Of a stretch of 64,000 bases of DNA, positions 22,305 through 32,683 are shown piece after piece. The notes under the pieces are model-generated. The model did not search any database. It had not been told where the DNA came from and saw nothing but the letters and a program-made list of their open reading frames with translations. Numbering within the stretch: position 1 is the stretch's first letter; the number at the start of each line of letters is the position of its first letter. The stretch lies in NCBI RefSeq assembly GCF_000970685.1, contig NZ_LAJB01000002.1:527854-591853 (forward strand), in the 5' to 3' direction. The stretch comes from Domibacillus indicus. Its GTDB lineage: Bacteria; Bacillota; Bacilli; Bacillales; Domibacillaceae. A program made the translations under genes and the position numbers.

Positions 22305-22332
22305 AAAACTGCCCTTAAAGGGCAGTTTTTTT
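22305..22332 (+). terminator. Shared terminator between yqgW and yqgS
   Basis: AAAACTGCCC, loop TTAA-like, GGGCAGTTTT with T-runs on both strands; it lies between convergent stops only about 27 bp apart. Confidence 0.9.
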
Positions 22333-24202
22333 ATTGTTTCTGTAATGCTGAATCCGGATCATAAAAACGAAGCAAATCGCCATAAATAACACGATCAGAG
22401 TAGCTTAATTCTGTGGCAGCTTTTTCAATATATGGAGCACATGCTGCAGAATCAATTTGTTCTCCTGTTGCTTTATCCCAGCATGCATCGCCAGCATACA
22501 CGTAATCTTTCGTTATAAAACGGCCGTCCCGGAACGCCGCAAAATTTTCATGTTCTGCAGACAATAAATCCTGGCCGAATTGAATATCTTCTTTCGTATC
22601 AATTCCTAAAAGGTGGAGCAAAGTCGGCCGGACATCTACCTGGCCTCCAACAGTTGAAATCTCTTTTCCTTTTACTCCAGGAATATGAATCATAAATGGC
22701 ACTTTTTGCAACTCAGCCGACACATAAGGTGTCACTTCCTTGCCAAGATATTGAGCCATTGCTTCATTATGATTCTCCGAAATTCCATAATGGTCTCCGT
22801 ACAGAACAATAACTGAATTCTCATAAAGTCCTGCTTTTTTTAAATCTTCTACAAATGTTTTTAACGCCTCATCGGTATACCGGACTGTGACAAAATAACG
22901 GTTTAACGTTCCGCTGTTCGAATTGAATTCCTCAATCAATTTGTCTTCATCGTCATAATAGAAAGGATGATGGTTTGTCAGTGTAATCATTTTAGAATAA
23001 AAAGGCTGCGGCATTTCTTTCATTAACCCAACAGACTGTTCGAAGAAAGGTATATCTTTCATTCCCCAGTTTACGCTGTTATCTTCGTTAACTTCATAAT
23101 CATTAACATTATAAAAGCGTTCATATCCAATCGATTCATACATAATATCACGGTTCCAAAAGCTTTTGTTGTTTGCATGCATAGCATTCGAGAAATAACC
23201 ATTTTCTTCAAGTCTTTCAGCCATTGAATTAAATTCATTTCCTGAATGTGTGAAGAAAACCGCTCCCCGGCTCAACGGGTACAGCGAATTTTCCGTTAAA
23301 AATTCTGCATCCGAGGTTTTACCCTGACCAGTCTGATGATAAAAATTCGTGAAATTTAAGCTTTCTTTAGCAAAGTCATTTAAAAATGGCGTAATCTCCT
23401 GGCCATTCACCGTATTATTCATCACAAATGCTTGAGTAGATTCTACTGATACCATAATTAAATTTTTCCCTTTTGCAATACCAAATAACTCATCATTTGG
23501 TGCTGCGTAATTGGCATCTGAGAAGTTCTGGATTTCCGTTAATTCACTTCCATTTGCCAGAGCACGCTGGGCGGAAGATTTAGATTGTAAGAAAATATCG
23601 TAAATATGATAGTTGAATGTGCCAATGTTTTTCACAAGCATTTCCCGGTCAAACGTTCTTGTCAGCAGCTGCGGACGCTCAATTTCTGCTAACCCGAGGT
23701 TTAAAAACATAAGTGCAGCAGCGGATAAAAAGTAGGCCCGGCGGTTCATTTTGGACATTGGCTGAAACTTTACAACCGAAGGCTTGAATTTAAGCAGAAA
23801 AAGTAAAAGAATGACATCTGCAAAATATAAAATATCGGCTGCATGAAATTCTTCTGTTACACTATTGCCCAGATCGGCAAAGTTGCTTGTTTGAAATAAA
23901 AGCGGCAGCGTAATAAAGTCGTTAAAAAAACGGTAAAAAACAACATTTGCAAACAATAGAAAGCTTAAGAAAAAGCTCATACCCAGCAAGTATCGATTAC
24001 GTACTTTATCACGCTTAAAGAAAAAGCCCAGACCCATTGCCAGCATGATAAAGCTGAGCGGGTTAATTAATAAAATAAACTCCTGCAGGGCGTTTTCAAT
24101 ATCCATGTTAAAACTTGTTTTATAGACGATATATGTTTTCATCCATAAGAACAAAACAGCGACAGCGATAAGGGAAACGTTGCTGTGTAATGTTCTTTTC
24201 AT
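22331..24202 (-). CDS. yqgS: Lipoteichoic acid synthase family protein YqgS
   Basis: Polymerises glycerol phosphate from phosphatidylglycerol on the outer face of the membrane. 623 residues. Five N-terminal membrane helices (within about 8-175) are followed by the extracellular sulfatase-like domain: ESTQAF metal site, catalytic Thr in [12 protein letters not shown] (near 305), and metal ligands in YGDHYGISE. One of several LtaS paralogues in Bacillus; by locus it is YqgS. PhoP-like repeats lie upstream. Confidence 0.92.
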
Positions 24203-27803: not shown

Positions 27804-27953
27804 TTACTTCGTTTCGCGGTGCACTGTTACTTTTTTCAATCGCGGGCTGTATTTTTTCAACTCGAGACGATCCGGGTTGTTACGTTTGTTTTTAGTTGTG
27901 ATATAGTTACGGTCACCGCTCTCAGTGCAAGCCAATGTAATATTTACACGCAT
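27804..27953 (-). CDS. rpmG: Ribosomal protein bL33, form lacking zinc cysteines
   Basis: Large-subunit ribosomal protein of 49 residues, starting [17 protein letters not shown] and ending VTVHRETK. In the usual zinc-ribbon form the first knuckle is CxxC and the second begins YCPR. Here the first reads C-T-E-S and the second YSPR, so only one cysteine remains and zinc cannot be held in the normal way. GGAGGG precedes the ATG; no Zur box is seen upstream. Confidence 0.95.
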
Positions 27954-28004: not shown

Positions 28005-28868
28005 CTATAATAGCACTTTTTCATCAGAAATGCCAGCCTGTTTTTTTAACATTGATGAATAAGATTCCTGCAAGTCTGCAGCTGTATTTTTTCCATGCAG
28101 CGCCGGCGAGGAAAAAGTATCGGAAAGTGGATAAATCGGCTTTAATCGCCCGGTAATCCCCTGGATTCCCCGCTTTAACCGTTTTTCTGCCAGCTTATAT
28201 GCACGATGTGTCCCAATATCCTGCCAATAGGCATTGGTTTCATATACATAAACAGGTTCCTGGTTAGAAAGAAGAGCCGGGAAGACATCTTTTGCAAAAT
28301 CTACTTCTCCTTGAAAAGGATAATCCTCAAACACAGACGGTTCAATTAAATAAATACCCGTGCTTACCTGGTTGGTCCATAAGTGGGCGTCCGCCGGTTT
28401 TTCTAACAGCGACAGCAGCCTTCCTTTTGGATCAGTTAAACAGACACCGAACTGCTCGGGCCGGTCTGCCACCGTCGTAACAATGGTAACCCGTGCCCCT
28501 TTTTCTTTATGAAAATCGTATACATGGCGCAATGGGATATTCGTCAGCGCATCCCCGCTTAAAATAGCCAGCGTCTCTTTAAATAAGCCGCTTGAAGCAA
28601 ATAAACTTCCTGCCGTACCGAGCGGCTTTCGCTCTTCAATATATTGAATGTAAAGCCCATCTTGCCTGCCAAACCCTGCATGCTGCTGAATAACTTCCTT
28701 TTTGTAACAAACCGTCATAATCACCCGATAAATCCCATTCATCTTAAAAACATTTAAGTTGTAATCTAAAAGAGGTTTATTTAGTAAAGGAACCATTGGC
28801 TTTGGTATGCGGTCGGTAATAGGACGCAGTCTTTTTCCACGCCCGCCAGCAAGCAAGATGCCTATCAT
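28005..28868 (-). CDS. Sugar-phosphate nucleotidyltransferase family protein
   Basis: 287 residues. The nucleotide-binding signature LAGGRGKRLRPITDRIPKPM is at 6-25, with PLLNKP following and LSGDALTN near 103 giving the metal-binding Asp. The family joins sugar 1-phosphates to NTPs (for example glucose- or mannose-1-phosphate); which sugar or base cannot be told. The C-terminal 50 residues show no hexapeptide repeats. The start overlaps the upstream GH57-like/GT4 gene by 4 nt (ATGA), so the two are translationally coupled and likely act in one pathway, perhaps supplying the NDP-sugar donor to the glycosyltransferase. Confidence 0.88.
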   Translation of the reverse strand: MIGILLAGGRGKRLRPITDRIPKPMVPLLNKPLLDYNLNVFKMNGIYRVIMTVCYKKEVIQQHAGFGRQDGLYIQYIEERKPLGTAGSLFASSGLFKETLAILSGDALTNIPLRHVYDFHKEKGARVTIVTTVADRPEQFGVCLTDPKGRLLSLLEKPADAHLWTNQVSTGIYLIEPSVFEDYPFQGEVDFAKDVFPALLSNQEPVYVYETNAYWQDIGTHRAYKLAEKRLKRGIQGITGRLKPIYPLSDTFSSPALHGKNTAADLQESYSSMLKKQAGISDEKVLL

Positions 28869-31138
28869 GTACGAACCCCTTCCATCTTTTTTATGAAAAC
28901 GGTTTGATTGTATACTTTTTCTGTTTGTGCACTGATGTGATTCCAGCTATAAAGCTCCTTTGCCATTTCGTGTCCATTAAGGCCAAGTTCTTTTGCAAAA
29001 TCAGGCTTATTTAAAATAGCCGATATTTTTTCCGATAAGTCCTCTGCGTTGCCGGGTTCAAACAAAAGGCCGGTTTGTTTGTGTAAAACAAAGGATTTTA
29101 ACCCTCCTGTCGCTGCGGCAATAACAGGCTTTTGAAATGCCATTGCTTCGAGGGCTACAATTCCAAACGGCTCATATAAGCTTGGAAAAACAGCCGCTTC
29201 GCATGATTGAAATAGTGCTTTTCTTTCTTCATCACTTACATATCCTACAAAGTGAATTCTATCTTCGAGTCCTCGTTTTTTTACTTCTTCACGCCAGTTT
29301 TCTAACAAAGGACCCTTCCCCGCAATAATAAACTGAATATTTTCTTTTTTCAAGCTTTTCAAGTGGATATTAAAAAATGTTTGAAATCCTTTTTCAAACA
29401 CCATTCTTCCAATCGAAAAAATAAATGGTTCCAGGTGGCTGAAGCGGGTAGAACCAGATACCCGTTCTTCAAATTCAACTCCGTTTGGAATCACATAGAT
29501 GTCTTTTTCTATCGCCTCATAGAAAACCCGCAATTCCTCTTTCATTGGCTGGCTGCAGACAATAATGGTATCTGAAGATGAAATAAGCGCTTTTTCTTTC
29601 GAAGCAATCGCATGCTGCAATTCATTGTGAAGACCATTGTTTCGGCCATGTTCTGTTGCATGAATAGTTGCAACAAGCGGAAGCTGGTGCTGCTCTGCCA
29701 GTAAAACGGCAGCATCCCCGGTCAGCCAGTCGTGTGTATGGATAAGAGAAACATCATACTCACGAATCAGCTCCGTTCCCTTCTGGAAAAGACACAAATT
29801 TAAATCTGATGTCTGCTTCAGAAAATCACGCTCTCCTTTATGAAGCGGACCTGTTCGATAAATATGAACACCTTTTACAACTTCATAATGAGGAGATTCA
29901 TGGTGGGAAGCTGTCAGCACAATTACTTCACGCCCGGAGGAAACGAGCGATTCAGCAAGACCGTGCACATGGCGGGCCATGCCGCCGACAATGTTTGGCG
30001 GATATTCCCACGTTAAAAGAAGAACAGCTCCCTCCATTTTTTCAATATGCTCAACTGGTTTTTCAGAAGAAAGAGTTACGCCATAATGCAGACGCATACG
30101 CTGGTGAGCATAATCTAAATCCGGAAATTCCTTGCGGGCGCCATCAAGTAAATATCGAAGAGAATCAACAGCACTTGCCAGCTCCTCTTCAAATCCGTGA
30201 ATGGCAGCATATATACAATATGCCCACTCAAGATCAAGCACTCCCCCTGCCTCATAAATGGCAGACCTGCACTTTTCGTCCCATTCTTCTTTTAAATAAA
30301 GAATTGGTTCACAGCGCTGAATTTCTTCAACTGTGATTAATTCCTGTCCTTTATTCATGTTTTCATAAGCAAGCGGAAAATGGATAAACCGCTTGGCAGA
30401 AGAAGAACTGCACTCTCTTACAGTCTGCTTTTTATCAATATCAGCATACCACCGGCAGGCATTCTCCTCTGTTATTGAAACAAGTGTTACAGCAGACTGA
30501 CTGTTTCCTTGCCTGTTTTCGGCTTCATAAGGAAAAATCTCAAGTCCGCGCGGCGACATCCAATGAACATCAGGCTCTTCTTCTAATGGAAAGGCATCGC
30601 CTGGAAGAAAAACAAACTGGCAGCCTGCCTGCTGAAGAAGTTCATCAATTCCTGGCATATAAGCACCGCGCGGAAGCCAGATAGACGCCGGCGGAGCACC
30701 AAATAATTCTTTCCAGACAGCAGCGGTCCGCTTTAAATCATCTGAAGCTGCCCCTTTTGCCGTGTAAGCAGTTAATGGATAATGACTGAGCGACACTGGC
30801 AGCAAAAGAAGCTTTCGTTCGTGAATTAAGTCTTTAAAGGCTTGAATAAACGAGCCATCATACGAGCGCAATAAATCAGCCGACATGTGGTGGTCATGAT
30901 GATCAATAAAGGTGTTGACAGCCATTTTTCCACGAACACCATTTAACCAGCCCAGTACAAACAAATTCACTACTGCTGTTACCGGCTTGCCCGGCTTTGC
31001 CTGATTAGCAGCCGCCAGCAGGCATCCGTACACGTTCATTATTTTTATTATTTCTTCACTGTCTATTGTCGATCCGGCCAGGGCAAGAGGCCGAAAGGGA
31101 TGATCTGCCATTAAGATATTTGAAAAAGAAACCTTCAT
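28865..31138 (-). CDS. GH57/DUF1957-like domain fused to a GT4 glycosyltransferase
   Basis: 757 residues. The N-terminal 340 resemble GH57-type alpha-glucan branching enzymes (DUF1957), but the usual WLPECAY with the nucleophile Glu reads WLPRGAY at 154-160, so Arg157 stands at the catalytic position. The second half is a GT-B glycosyltransferase of family 4: LLTWEYPPNIVGGMARHV at its start (near 373), IPNGVEF in the middle and the EPFGIVALEAM donor-binding motif near 660. This suggests transfer to an alpha-glucan or related polymer with a non-catalytic GH57 fold. It is preceded by the DUF4912 gene and followed by a nucleotidyltransferase. The product is not known. Confidence 0.85.
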   Translation of the reverse strand: MKVSFSNILMADHPFRPLALAGSTIDSEEIIKIMNVYGCLLAAANQAKPGKPVTAVVNLFVLGWLNGVRGKMAVNTFIDHHDHHMSADLLRSYDGSFIQAFKDLIHERKLLLLPVSLSHYPLTAYTAKGAASDDLKRTAAVWKELFGAPPASIWLPRGAYMPGIDELLQQAGCQFVFLPGDAFPLEEEPDVHWMSPRGLEIFPYEAENRQGNSQSAVTLVSITEENACRWYADIDKKQTVRECSSSSAKRFIHFPLAYENMNKGQELITVEEIQRCEPILYLKEEWDEKCRSAIYEAGGVLDLEWAYCIYAAIHGFEEELASAVDSLRYLLDGARKEFPDLDYAHQRMRLHYGVTLSSEKPVEHIEKMEGAVLLLTWEYPPNIVGGMARHVHGLAESLVSSGREVIVLTASHHESPHYEVVKGVHIYRTGPLHKGERDFLKQTSDLNLCLFQKGTELIREYDVSLIHTHDWLTGDAAVLLAEQHQLPLVATIHATEHGRNNGLHNELQHAIASKEKALISSSDTIIVCSQPMKEELRVFYEAIEKDIYVIPNGVEFEERVSGSTRFSHLEPFIFSIGRMVFEKGFQTFFNIHLKSLKKENIQFIIAGKGPLLENWREEVKKRGLEDRIHFVGYVSDEERKALFQSCEAAVFPSLYEPFGIVALEAMAFQKPVIAAATGGLKSFVLHKQTGLLFEPGNAEDLSEKISAILNKPDFAKELGLNGHEMAKELYSWNHISAQTEKVYNQTVFIKKMEGVRT

Positions 31139-31169
31139 TTCCCTTTACCTCCTTCACCTATTTACAGCT

Positions 31170-31736
31170 TTATCGCAGGCAATCTGGATGCTCAATCCAG
31201 TTTGGTGCGTCAAAAGGATAGTGGTAAAATTCTTCTGCTGCCCTTAGTTTAAATATATAATCTGTGTTCCGCTGATATGAAGTGTGGACAGGGTGTGACT
31301 GTAAAATTGGCCAGAATGTATAATGCTCTGTTAAATAACCAAGTTCACAAATATAAGAACGATTTCGCTTCAGGCCTTTGATAACCCAGCTGCAATCCTC
31401 TTTAGTTACTTTTATGCAAGTAACTGAGTGGGCATTTGCTCCATTAAAATAAATATCCGTTACATCAAAAATCCGGAGATCCAGCACTTCTGGATTTAAC
31501 GGCTTTTCACAATAAAATGCCGCTTCTAACAGACGAGGTTGAAGATGCCATCTGCAGTATAGGCGCTCTTTTGATAAAAAAATGGCGTGAAGTTCATTTT
31601 TCACCTCCAGGCCCTTTTTTTCCGTCATAAAACGACGCCATTTTTGCTTTACCTGCTGCTTTGGAATCGATAATTTCGACTCGATTTGATCCCAGGAGAA
31701 ATTTCGATTTCTCAGCTTGACAATTTCCTCAATCAA
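31170..31736 (-). CDS. DUF4912 domain protein
   Basis: 188 residues. An N-terminal helix-turn-helix-like stretch (about 4-40, with WDQIESKLSIPKQQVKQKWR) is followed by a DUF4912 domain: RLYCRWHL for the carbohydrate-module-like strand, LRIFDVTDI, and RSYICELGYL near 130. DUF4912 is found beside glycogen-type and GH57 proteins in other bacteria, which agrees with the gene order here. Start TTG at 31736 has GGGGTGAT 5 nt upstream. First gene of the probable three-gene operon. Confidence 0.75.
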   Translation of the reverse strand: MIEEIVKLRNRNFSWDQIESKLSIPKQQVKQKWRRFMTEKKGLEVKNELHAIFLSKERLYCRWHLQPRLLEAAFYCEKPLNPEVLDLRIFDVTDIYFNGANAHSVTCIKVTKEDCSWVIKGLKRNRSYICELGYLTEHYTFWPILQSHPVHTSYQRNTDYIFKLRAAEEFYHYPFDAPNWIEHPDCLR

Positions 31737-31886: not shown

Positions 31887-32249
31887 ATGAACGGACTTAT
31901 AATCGGATTGGCATGTGCCGGTGCCTGTTTTATTTTATTGTCATTTTTTGTCCGGGATAAGCAGCGGCATCTTGAAAAAGAACTTGAAGAACTCTCAATG
32001 AAAATGCTGCAGGAACACTACCAATTTAACAAAAAGCTGAAAGTACTTGAAGAAGAACTCCTGATTGGAGACACTCCTCCCATCAAAATTAAAAAACCGG
32101 CCGCAGTAAATGAAATTCTTCAAAGCCAGGTCATTGCACTTTATCAGCAGGGAACCCCACTGCCGCAAATCGCAGCCCAATCTTCGCTTTCACTAGATCA
32201 GGTGAAACACATTTTAGCTGTAAATAAGCGAATGGAGAATCAAGTATGA
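31887..32249 (+). CDS. Small membrane-anchored protein with coiled coil and HTH-like end
   Basis: 120 residues; not assigned to a named family. One N-terminal membrane helix (about 2-22), a charged helical segment (27-60) likely to form a coiled coil, and a C-terminal helix-turn-helix-like stretch (IAALYQQG-type pattern VIALYQQGTPLPQIAAQSSL). B. subtilis has small genes yqzC and yqzD next to pst, and this gene may be the counterpart of one of them. AAAGGGG precedes the ATG. It overlaps the next gene by 4 nt. Confidence 0.75.
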   Translation: MNGLIIGLACAGACFILLSFFVRDKQRHLEKELEELSMKMLQEHYQFNKKLKVLEEELLIGDTPPIKIKKPAAVNEILQSQVIALYQQGTPLPQIAAQSSLSLDQVKHILAVNKRMENQV

Positions 32250-32683
32250 CCAAACAATCTATTCGCTCCTTTGGCATTGGGCTTCTGGCTGCTTCGGCTG
32301 CCCTGTTTGTATTCAATCAATCCGAATCAAATAAATCTGCAGAACTTTCGACAGAAGAAATGATCCAGCTGCTGGAGGAAGAAAATTACACAGTTCAAAA
32401 AGCAGATTCCAGCAAAGAACAAGAGCCGGCTTCAGAACAAACCAGCCAAGCACAGCGCCAACCAGGAAAAGCCGCCGCCCAGCCTGTGACAATTTTAGTC
32501 GAATCAGGCATGTCGTCTTCTGAAGTAGCCGTTATGTTAAAAGAGGCCGGCCTTGTCGACGATGCAGAAGCTTTTAATCAATATTTAACGGAAACCGGTT
32601 ATGCTAACCGCCTGCAGACAGGATCGTTTACTTTCCAGCCCGGCATGACTGATGAAAAGCTTGCCGAAATATTAACAAACTAA
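32246..32683 (+). CDS. MltG/YceG-like domain protein
   Basis: 145 residues. An N-terminal membrane helix or uncleaved signal (about 7-23) is followed by a Gln/Glu-rich linker (40-75) and a small domain of about 65 residues with VESGMSSSEVAVMLKEAGLV, similar to the LysM-like lobe of endolytic transglycosylase MltG but without its catalytic domain. It therefore probably binds peptidoglycan outside the membrane and does not cut it. Coupled to the gene upstream by ATGA overlap; terminator follows. Confidence 0.75.
   Translation: MTKQSIRSFGIGLLAASAALFVFNQSESNKSAELSTEEMIQLLEEENYTVQKADSSKEQEPASEQTSQAQRQPGKAAAQPVTILVESGMSSSEVAVMLKEAGLVDDAEAFNQYLTETGYANRLQTGSFTFQPGMTDEKLAEILTN

Follow-up and report, generated by a model that had tools for sequence, protein, structure and literature searches.

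The GH57, GH15, phosphorylase and phosphoglucomutase families act on α-glucans or α-glucan precursors, and the mycobacterial genes for methylglucose lipopolysaccharide (MGLP) include one for a GT4 glycosyltransferase (Rv3032) and one for a GH57 protein (Rv3031); we know of no DUF4912 gene among them. GH57 enzymes use a glutamate as nucleophile and an aspartate as acid, and passages of one study define a ‘GBE-like’ GH57 group of 60 sequences by the loss of one or both of these residues (PMC6037648). Passages of another discuss archaeal clusters of GT4 and GH57 amylase genes as possible uncharacterized glycogen synthases (PMC11046441). Here, we analyzed a 64,000-nucleotide stretch of the Domibacillus indicus genome (the window; positions 527,854 to 591,853 of contig NZ_LAJB01000002.1, assembly GCF_000970685.1) carrying a three-gene module that encodes a DUF4912 protein, a fusion of a GH57-like domain to a GT4 domain, and a sugar-1-phosphate nucleotidyltransferase (NTP). 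We found that the GH57 domain, judged by its residues, is catalytically dead in the window and in 17 further loci of the same family, yet is kept by purifying selection. What is novel is that the GH57 nucleophile, the acid aspartate and the histidines of conserved sequence region 1 (CSR1) are lost while the fused GT4 domain keeps its E-x7-E motif. We consider it moderately probable that the locus is the Domibacillus version of an ancestral Bacillota α-glucan module with a dead branching domain, eroded where the classical GlgBCDAP system took over and left with an accessory role. The module comprises:

31170..31736, minus strand: DUF4912 protein, 188 aa, TTG start (open reading frame (ORF) and Pfam PF16258)
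31611..31733, minus strand: N-terminal helix-turn-helix (HTH)-like three-helix segment of that protein, residues 2-42 (AlphaFold2 helices 2-10, 15-22 and 26-42)
31269..31598, minus strand: DUF4912 domain proper, an FN3/Ig-like beta-sandwich, residues 47-156 (Foldseek and VIA)
28865..31138, minus strand: GH57-like and GT4 fusion protein, 757 aa (ORF and Pfam)
30083..31138, minus strand: GH57 branching-enzyme-like domain, apparently catalytically dead, residues 1-352 (PDB profile matches, catalytic residues absent)
30668..30670, minus strand: codon for Arg157, which stands where GH57 enzymes have their nucleophile Glu (WLPRGAY against WLPECAY; alignment)
28886..30040, minus strand: GT4 retaining glycosyltransferase domain, residues 367-751 (fold match, Z 43.2)
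29147..29173, minus strand: E-x7-E motif of the GT4 active site, EPFGIVALE, residues 656-664 (alignment)
28005..28868, minus strand: NTP, 287 aa (ORF and Pfam NTP_transferase)

The first-pass annotation of the window had proposed three tightly packed genes on one strand, and the ORF list and Pfam matches bear this out: 31 nt separate the DUF4912 gene from the fusion gene, which overlaps the NTP gene by 4 nt. The closest named relative among the matches listed, from which records very similar to the window’s genome may be missing, is Domibacillus antri (L099), whose fusion protein is 68% identical. Homology of the N-terminal half of the fusion to the GH57 barrel is supported by a Pfam Glyco_hydro_57 match (33.3 bits, cut-off 21.2) and by a profile of 13 dead domains, which at E < 1e-8 matched only GH57 enzymes in the PDB (2b5d, 5wu7, 3n8t, 1ufa and 3p0b). 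A fold search with the whole fusion returned only glycosyltransferase structures among the rows listed and barely probed the GH57 part, so that the GH57 identity rests on sequence profiles; the AlphaFold2 model has a mean predicted local distance difference test score (pLDDT) of 84 and a predicted template-modeling score (pTM) of 0.54, leaving the relative placement of its domains unsure. No Pfam match to BE_C was found in the window fusion, and the model shows four helices between residues 270 and 352. The stretch preceding the glycosyltransferase spans 373-436 residues in the family, against mostly at least 540 in copies from the class.

The first-pass annotation had called this fold glucan-active, which the residues do not support. 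At the nucleophile position (CSR3, strand β4) the window has Arg157, and all 18 family copies have R or Q; relatives also carry K, D or Y, so no substitute nucleophile appears to have been fixed. The proton-donor motif DAELFGHWW (CSR4, strand β7) is gone from the window and the 17 family relatives, and CSR1 lacks its HxH, with MADHPF aligned where HAHLPY is expected. GH57 copies elsewhere mostly keep the Glu and the Asp, the exceptions being L086 and, by pattern only, L164. Within the genus, the dead domain has a median ratio of nonsynonymous to synonymous substitution rates (dN/dS) of 0.138 (12 pairs), compared with 0.030 for pstB (15 pairs) and 0.166 for the neighboring cyclo-ligase gene (22 pairs). 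These comparisons used 11-29 pairs per region with dS between 0.1 and 1.5, and since median dS was about 1.0-1.4, near saturation, the ratios are rough. The domain is thus maintained by purifying selection and is constrained about as much as the neighboring enzyme.

The fused GT4 domain (dN/dS 0.057, 16 pairs) has a GT-B fold with the E-x7-E motif and belongs to GT4: Pfam Glycos_transf_1 matches the fusion at 139.2 bits, VIA gives Z 43.2 to 6kih, 42.5 to MshA (3c4q) and 40.7 to GlgM (6tvp), and both glutamates of E-x7-E are retained in 41/41 fusion rows shown. Its best NCBIfam match is glgA_Coryne (TIGR02149), at 155 bits and under the cut-off of 302. The NTP (dN/dS 0.086, 18 pairs) matches Pfam NTP_transferase at 154.9 bits (cut-off 21.2) and keeps the signature of sugar-1-phosphate nucleotidyltransferases (GGxGxRLRPxT, PKPMVPL, PLGTAGS, SGDALT and EKP). 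It is not GlgC by score, reaching 98.4 bits on TIGR02091 against a cut-off of 424.9, and it lacks the LbH and phosphoglucomutase/phosphomannomutase (PGM/PMM)-like domains of longer homologs.

The DUF4912 protein exceeds the gathering score of PF16258 (64.6 against 29.4 bits), and its model (mean pLDDT 90) shows three N-terminal helices followed by an FN3-like sandwich, which Foldseek matches to FN3 domains at a best E of 1.9e-5 and VIA at Z 10.4 (3.1 Å over 94 residues). The domain has a dN/dS of 0.143 (29 pairs) and the fast-evolving HTH-like end 0.41 (20 pairs). By eye, this HTH-like start is kept in many relatives from the class; a few DUF4912 relatives weakly match HTH or sigma70_r4 models in Pfam, and weak matches among 49 members include HTH_23 in five and Glucodextranase domain B in two. 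We also considered kinship of the HTH-like end with the divergent neighbor at 31887-32249, and BLASTP found no similarity. In Cytobacillus citreus (L115:7449-9230), DUF4912 and GT4 form a single natural ORF of 593 aa, which argues that the two work together. DUF4912 is matched in 191/398 sampled genomes of the phylum, and in the parts of the literature searched it is mentioned only in work on cotton callus. The module would supply DUF4912 with a partner, GT4, and with a probable substrate class, α-glucan.

Recurrence of the three genes elsewhere had been named beforehand as a test of the proposed module, joining an NDP-sugar former, a GT4 fused to a GH57 fold and DUF4912, and we found them together across Bacillota. 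Among 57 loci of at least 15 kb from the 80 retrieved with the GH57-GT4 alignment A1 (the best 80 of at least 590), DUF4912 occurs in 45, GH57 in 36 and NTP in 40; by our estimate, the chance that 17 kb taken at random from a genome of 3-4 Mb would contain a given single-copy gene is about 0.5%. Of 20 class loci selected for their glycosyltransferase, all hold GH57 and NTP and 19 hold DUF4912; of 20 phylum loci selected for DUF4912, all hold GH57, 16 hold GT4 and 14 hold NTP. As the former were chosen from the strongest matches and the latter from strong, taxonomically spread ones, neither set gives random-sample rates. The GH57-GT4 protein of class loci is about 880-1120 aa as called, and in many other loci the two are separate genes. 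GH15-type genes neighbor the module, with GH15 models in up to 10/20 class and 4/20 phylum loci. In one family, three of the four loci retrieved have a phosphorylase gene close to the module (L076 by Pfam scan, L079 and L080 by cluster and PF00343 matches at those places; not L077), and L088 has a phosphoglucomutase (PGM/PMM)-family gene nearby. Both GH57 proteins scanned from fuller loci are full-length with a BE_C domain, and the one long NTP homolog scanned is fused to LbH and PGM/PMM domains.

The ‘complete logic’ that the first-pass annotation saw in three genes is accordingly too narrow a description, as fuller copies elsewhere often add GH15 and a phosphomutase-like domain on the NTP protein. 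Membership of a characterized pathway, which it had named as grounds for refutation, finds no backing in the literature searched, in which we found no description of a GH57-GT4 fusion or of a DUF4912/GH57/GT4/NTP module; passages of PMC6629080, PMC6616209 and PMC8116748 hold nothing on it. Of the two polymers it offered, a glycogen-like one is the better supported; for an envelope glycan we found no evidence, with a minority of the neighbors in other genomes annotated. Because these genes are repeatedly found as a group, in many cases with GH15 and in some close to a phosphorylase or phosphomutase, an α-glucan is the likeliest product. As a separate observation, the PGM/PMM-like domain of NTP-PGM proteins from L055-L094 seems by eye to lack the usual TASHNP serine motif and may be non-catalytic too.

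In the family, DUF4912 is matched in 18/24 genomes, and one of the six without a match is 77% complete. In each of the 17 other same-family loci retrieved, the DUF4912, GH57-GT4 and NTP genes keep their order and their position between the pst operon and a 5-formyltetrahydrofolate cyclo-ligase gene. In the window, the NTP gene is followed 51 nt downstream by:

27804..27953, minus strand: rpmG (L33; sequence)

At this position, three further loci from the order carry reduced or related forms: L052 has DUF4912 and the fusion without NTP, L053 has DUF4912 and GT4 alone with neither GH57 domain nor NTP gene, and L054 has the fusion and NTP. A strong glycosyltransferase match was found in three of eight order genomes outside the family and in none of the other five. 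The first-pass annotation held that the genes interrupt the B. subtilis order of rpmG and pst. With the module or a reduced form already there in 17 family and three order loci, all selected for a DUF4912 or glycosyltransferase match, gene order instead indicates that it has long resided in the pst-rpmG interval of these families, with loss or original absence in others. B. subtilis presumably carries yqgL-yqgM in the same interval; nothing on that order was found in the literature searched. The DUF4912 search gives a match in the B. subtilis control genome.

The window’s genome also carries a glgB-C-D-A-P operon, on contig C20 and apart from the module. The module genes do not belong to classical GlgBCDAP, whose GlgA, GlgB and GlgC sit in that separate operon. 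Across the family, the 18 genomes with DUF4912 and the incomplete genome all have GlgA over the cut-off and GlgP, and both are missing from the remaining five. In the Bacillaceae part of the GT4 tree, we found a complete-looking form in Fictibacillus (GH57-GT4 with catalytic motifs, NTP-PGM and GH15), an intermediate form with dead GH57 and bare NTP (Domibacillus, Rossellomorea), and a reduced form with DUF4912 and GT4 without GH57 (Neobacillus, Mesobacillus). No PF00343 match was found in either of two Fictibacillus genomes. Full-length GlgP is present in the genomes of 41/41 sampled copies without GH57 catalysis, against 4/32 of those keeping it. This count covers the 73 of 118 tree copies whose genomes had a GlgP look-up, pools dead and absent GH57, and leaves out L139 and the majority of loci in which GH57 and GT4 are encoded separately; the 118-copy set holds 27 dead GH57 copies (L115 has DUF4912 and no GH57), and L099, L100, L168 and L174 were omitted from the trees as genome duplicates. 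A genome was scored as having full-length GlgP if its match came to about 800 bits or higher, either as a single piece or summed over two (L086, L123), and short MalP-type matches were scored as absent (among them L076, L079, L080, L083, L085, L124, L150, L158, L166 and L178).

Two side observations concern these loci. L086 (genome G492) seems to have lost the nucleophile separately, with the Glu deleted in the alignment and the Asp kept, and the GlgP gene of this genome is in two pieces with stops. Downstream of GT4 in 12 reduced loci (L105, L107-L110, L112, L113, L115, L117, L120, L130 and L139), stand-alone ORFs of about 210 aa resemble the N-terminal non-catalytic part of the module’s GH15 (E 2e-7 to 4e-17 in our model), and none of the four scanned has a Pfam family over cut-off; this suggests that the locus has lost another catalytic domain besides that of GH57.

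In the reading we favor, the NTP would make an NDP-hexose, most likely NDP-glucose, and GT4, whose catalytic motif is intact, would move glucose with retention onto an α-glucan or malto-oligosaccharide acceptor. In complete copies, family membership suggests that GH57 adds α-1,6 branches. In the window, being catalytically dead yet under purifying selection, the domain most likely gives the glycosyltransferase structural support or holds glucan for it, and the DUF4912 protein, with its FN3-like sandwich and HTH-like N-terminus, would work with GT4. Takeover of bulk glycogen synthesis by GlgBCDAP would have led to the losses in the old module: cutting and branching would become redundant, while the glycosyltransferase, the sugar-nucleotide supply and the non-catalytic domains stay under selection. 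The remaining role would be accessory, for example making, priming or tuning a minor α-glucan. The module would then be a natural experiment in which a fused enzyme turns into a non-catalytic scaffold, and the occurrence in nature of a series running from complete through dead-domain to stripped forms allows direct tests.

Several points weigh against this reading. For relating the loss of GH57 catalysis to GlgP, the tree offers two changes and two pairs that are independent, with which a sign test cannot reach 0.05; with two independent contrasts, the link is suggestive. Four copies keep GH57 catalysis although GlgP is present (L054, L059, L090 and L126), and the 41/41 against 4/32 count takes the MalP-type genomes as ‘no’ and the split GlgP genes as ‘yes’. 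In the class, the module (a glycosyltransferase match at E < 1e-40, in 34 of 151 genomes) is unassociated with PF00343 phosphorylase (14/34 vs 48/117, odds ratio 1.0), and in the phylum phosphorylase is weakly linked to DUF4912 (126/191 vs 96/207, odds ratio 2.2, kinship uncorrected). The NTP matches mannose-1-phosphate, glucose-1-phosphate and other models, all far below cut-off, so that both the glucose donor and its nucleotide are putative. The FN3-like fold predicted for DUF4912 proves no sugar binding. GT4 is also a broad family, in which MshA- or SPS-like transfer to a small molecule may apply.

This last point leads to the alternative that fares best, that the product is a small glucosylated compound or a modified glucan of short length, made by an MGLP-like logic, and not a storage glucan. 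The pairing of GT4 with GH57 is shared with MGLP, some Actinomycetota loci pair the two as well (L152, L164 and L175), and the GT4 fold matches MshA, SPS and GlgM at similar Z. We nonetheless regard it as unlikely: the GH15 and, at some loci, phosphorylase neighbors fit a storage-type glucan, and the recurrent neighbors that we annotated, from a minority of all neighbors, include no methyl- or acyltransferase save an unrelated rRNA methylase-type gene. We rank next, also as unlikely, a bolder form of the glucan reading. It posits a Bacillota α-glucan pathway apart from GlgBCDAP and GlgE that was stripped of its catalytic glucan-cutting parts in Bacillaceae, losing first the GH57 residues and then the whole GH57 domain, the catalytic domain of GH15 and the PGM-like domain. 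The leftover GT4, held by DUF4912 and by domains that handle glucan without catalysis, would prime or initiate glycogen as a functional equivalent of glycogenin, or would regulate the particle size of the polymer made by GlgA.

More doubtful is a role of the module in the synthesis or modification of an envelope glycan. Such glycans are common targets of GT4 enzymes, and DUF4912 proteins of other classes seem by eye to have a hydrophobic N-terminal segment; against this, GH57, GH15 and phosphorylase are α-glucan-acting families, inspection by eye showed no signal peptide in any of the three proteins of the window, and the recurrent neighbors that we annotated, again from a minority of all neighbors, include no lipid-carrier, flippase or export gene. 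Chance persistence of a functionless, decaying relic is very improbable. The stepwise losses, of GH57 residues, PGM-like and LbH domains and GH15, then of the whole GH57 and NTP, would suit decay, but the genes are present and syntenic in 18/18 family copies, the GT4 and NTP motifs are intact, and GT4, NTP, dead GH57 and the DUF4912 domain all show low dN/dS (0.057, 0.086, 0.138 and 0.143). Least probable of all is that the GH57 domain shifted to a new catalysis with other residues: W154, P156 and E304 do remain invariant in the 13-sequence alignment of dead domains, but the CSR1, CSR3 and CSR4 residues are all lost and the variation at position 157 speaks against a substituted nucleophile.

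A consensus scan placed its longest stem, a terminator-like hairpin at 27805-27779, after rpmG, and listed none on the minus strand between the NTP stop and rpmG, so a common transcript of rpmG and the three module genes is possible. The TTG start of the DUF4912 gene is supported by a CGGGGTGATACATATTG-type sequence kept in most loci of the genus. As an operator candidate we considered and dropped the perfect palindrome ATACCATAATGGTAT upstream of this gene; among the upstream regions printed, no others than those of the window and L043 have it in exact form. The scan for promoters gave 12 sites against 10.3 expected, and we claim none. A divergent gene pair at 31887-32683 (plus strand) adjoins the module in 20/20 family and order loci; one gene encodes a protein that begins with a hydrophobic segment and has an HTH_7-like stretch, below the Pfam cut-off, at its C-terminus, and the other a short YceG-like protein. 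The same conserved neighborhood holds a Sulfatase-family membrane protein (22331-24202, minus strand; Pfam Sulfatase), which we take to be LtaS-like.

Among the systems compared, GH57 branching enzymes (T. maritima AmyC 2b5d, TK1436 3n8t, TT1467 3p0b and P. horikoshii 5wu7) are matched by the dead-domain profile at E 5e-18 to 1e-9, and the GBE-like group, by the description of its 60 sequences in the passages seen, likewise lacks catalytic residues. Unlike either, the window domain is fused to GT4 and is missing CSR1 and CSR4 as well. The archaeal clusters, compared by description in the passages cited, resemble the module in that GT4 and GH57 genes are neighbors and are discussed in connection with glycogen; they differ in being archaeal, with no DUF4912, fusion or dead GH57 described. 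MGLP, a system with dedicated methyl/acyltransferases, shares the pairing of GH57 with GT4, a likeness at the level of gene families. GlgM/glgA_Coryne is the nearest named glycosyltransferase by NCBIfam and a close fold match, whereas the module’s enzyme reaches about half the curated cut-off and is fused to GH57. YqgL-YqgM of B. subtilis pairs a GT4 with a small protein in the interval between pst and yqgN, like L053, and judged by that type of locus differs from the module in having no GH57 domain and no NTP gene; YqgM appears in the parts of the literature searched only as a family label, and the module could help explain genes of this type. Classical GlgBCDAP follows the same logic of NDP-sugar former, glycosyltransferase and branching enzyme, but with a GT5 GlgA and its own GlgB where the module has GT4 and GH57, and this genome carries both systems.

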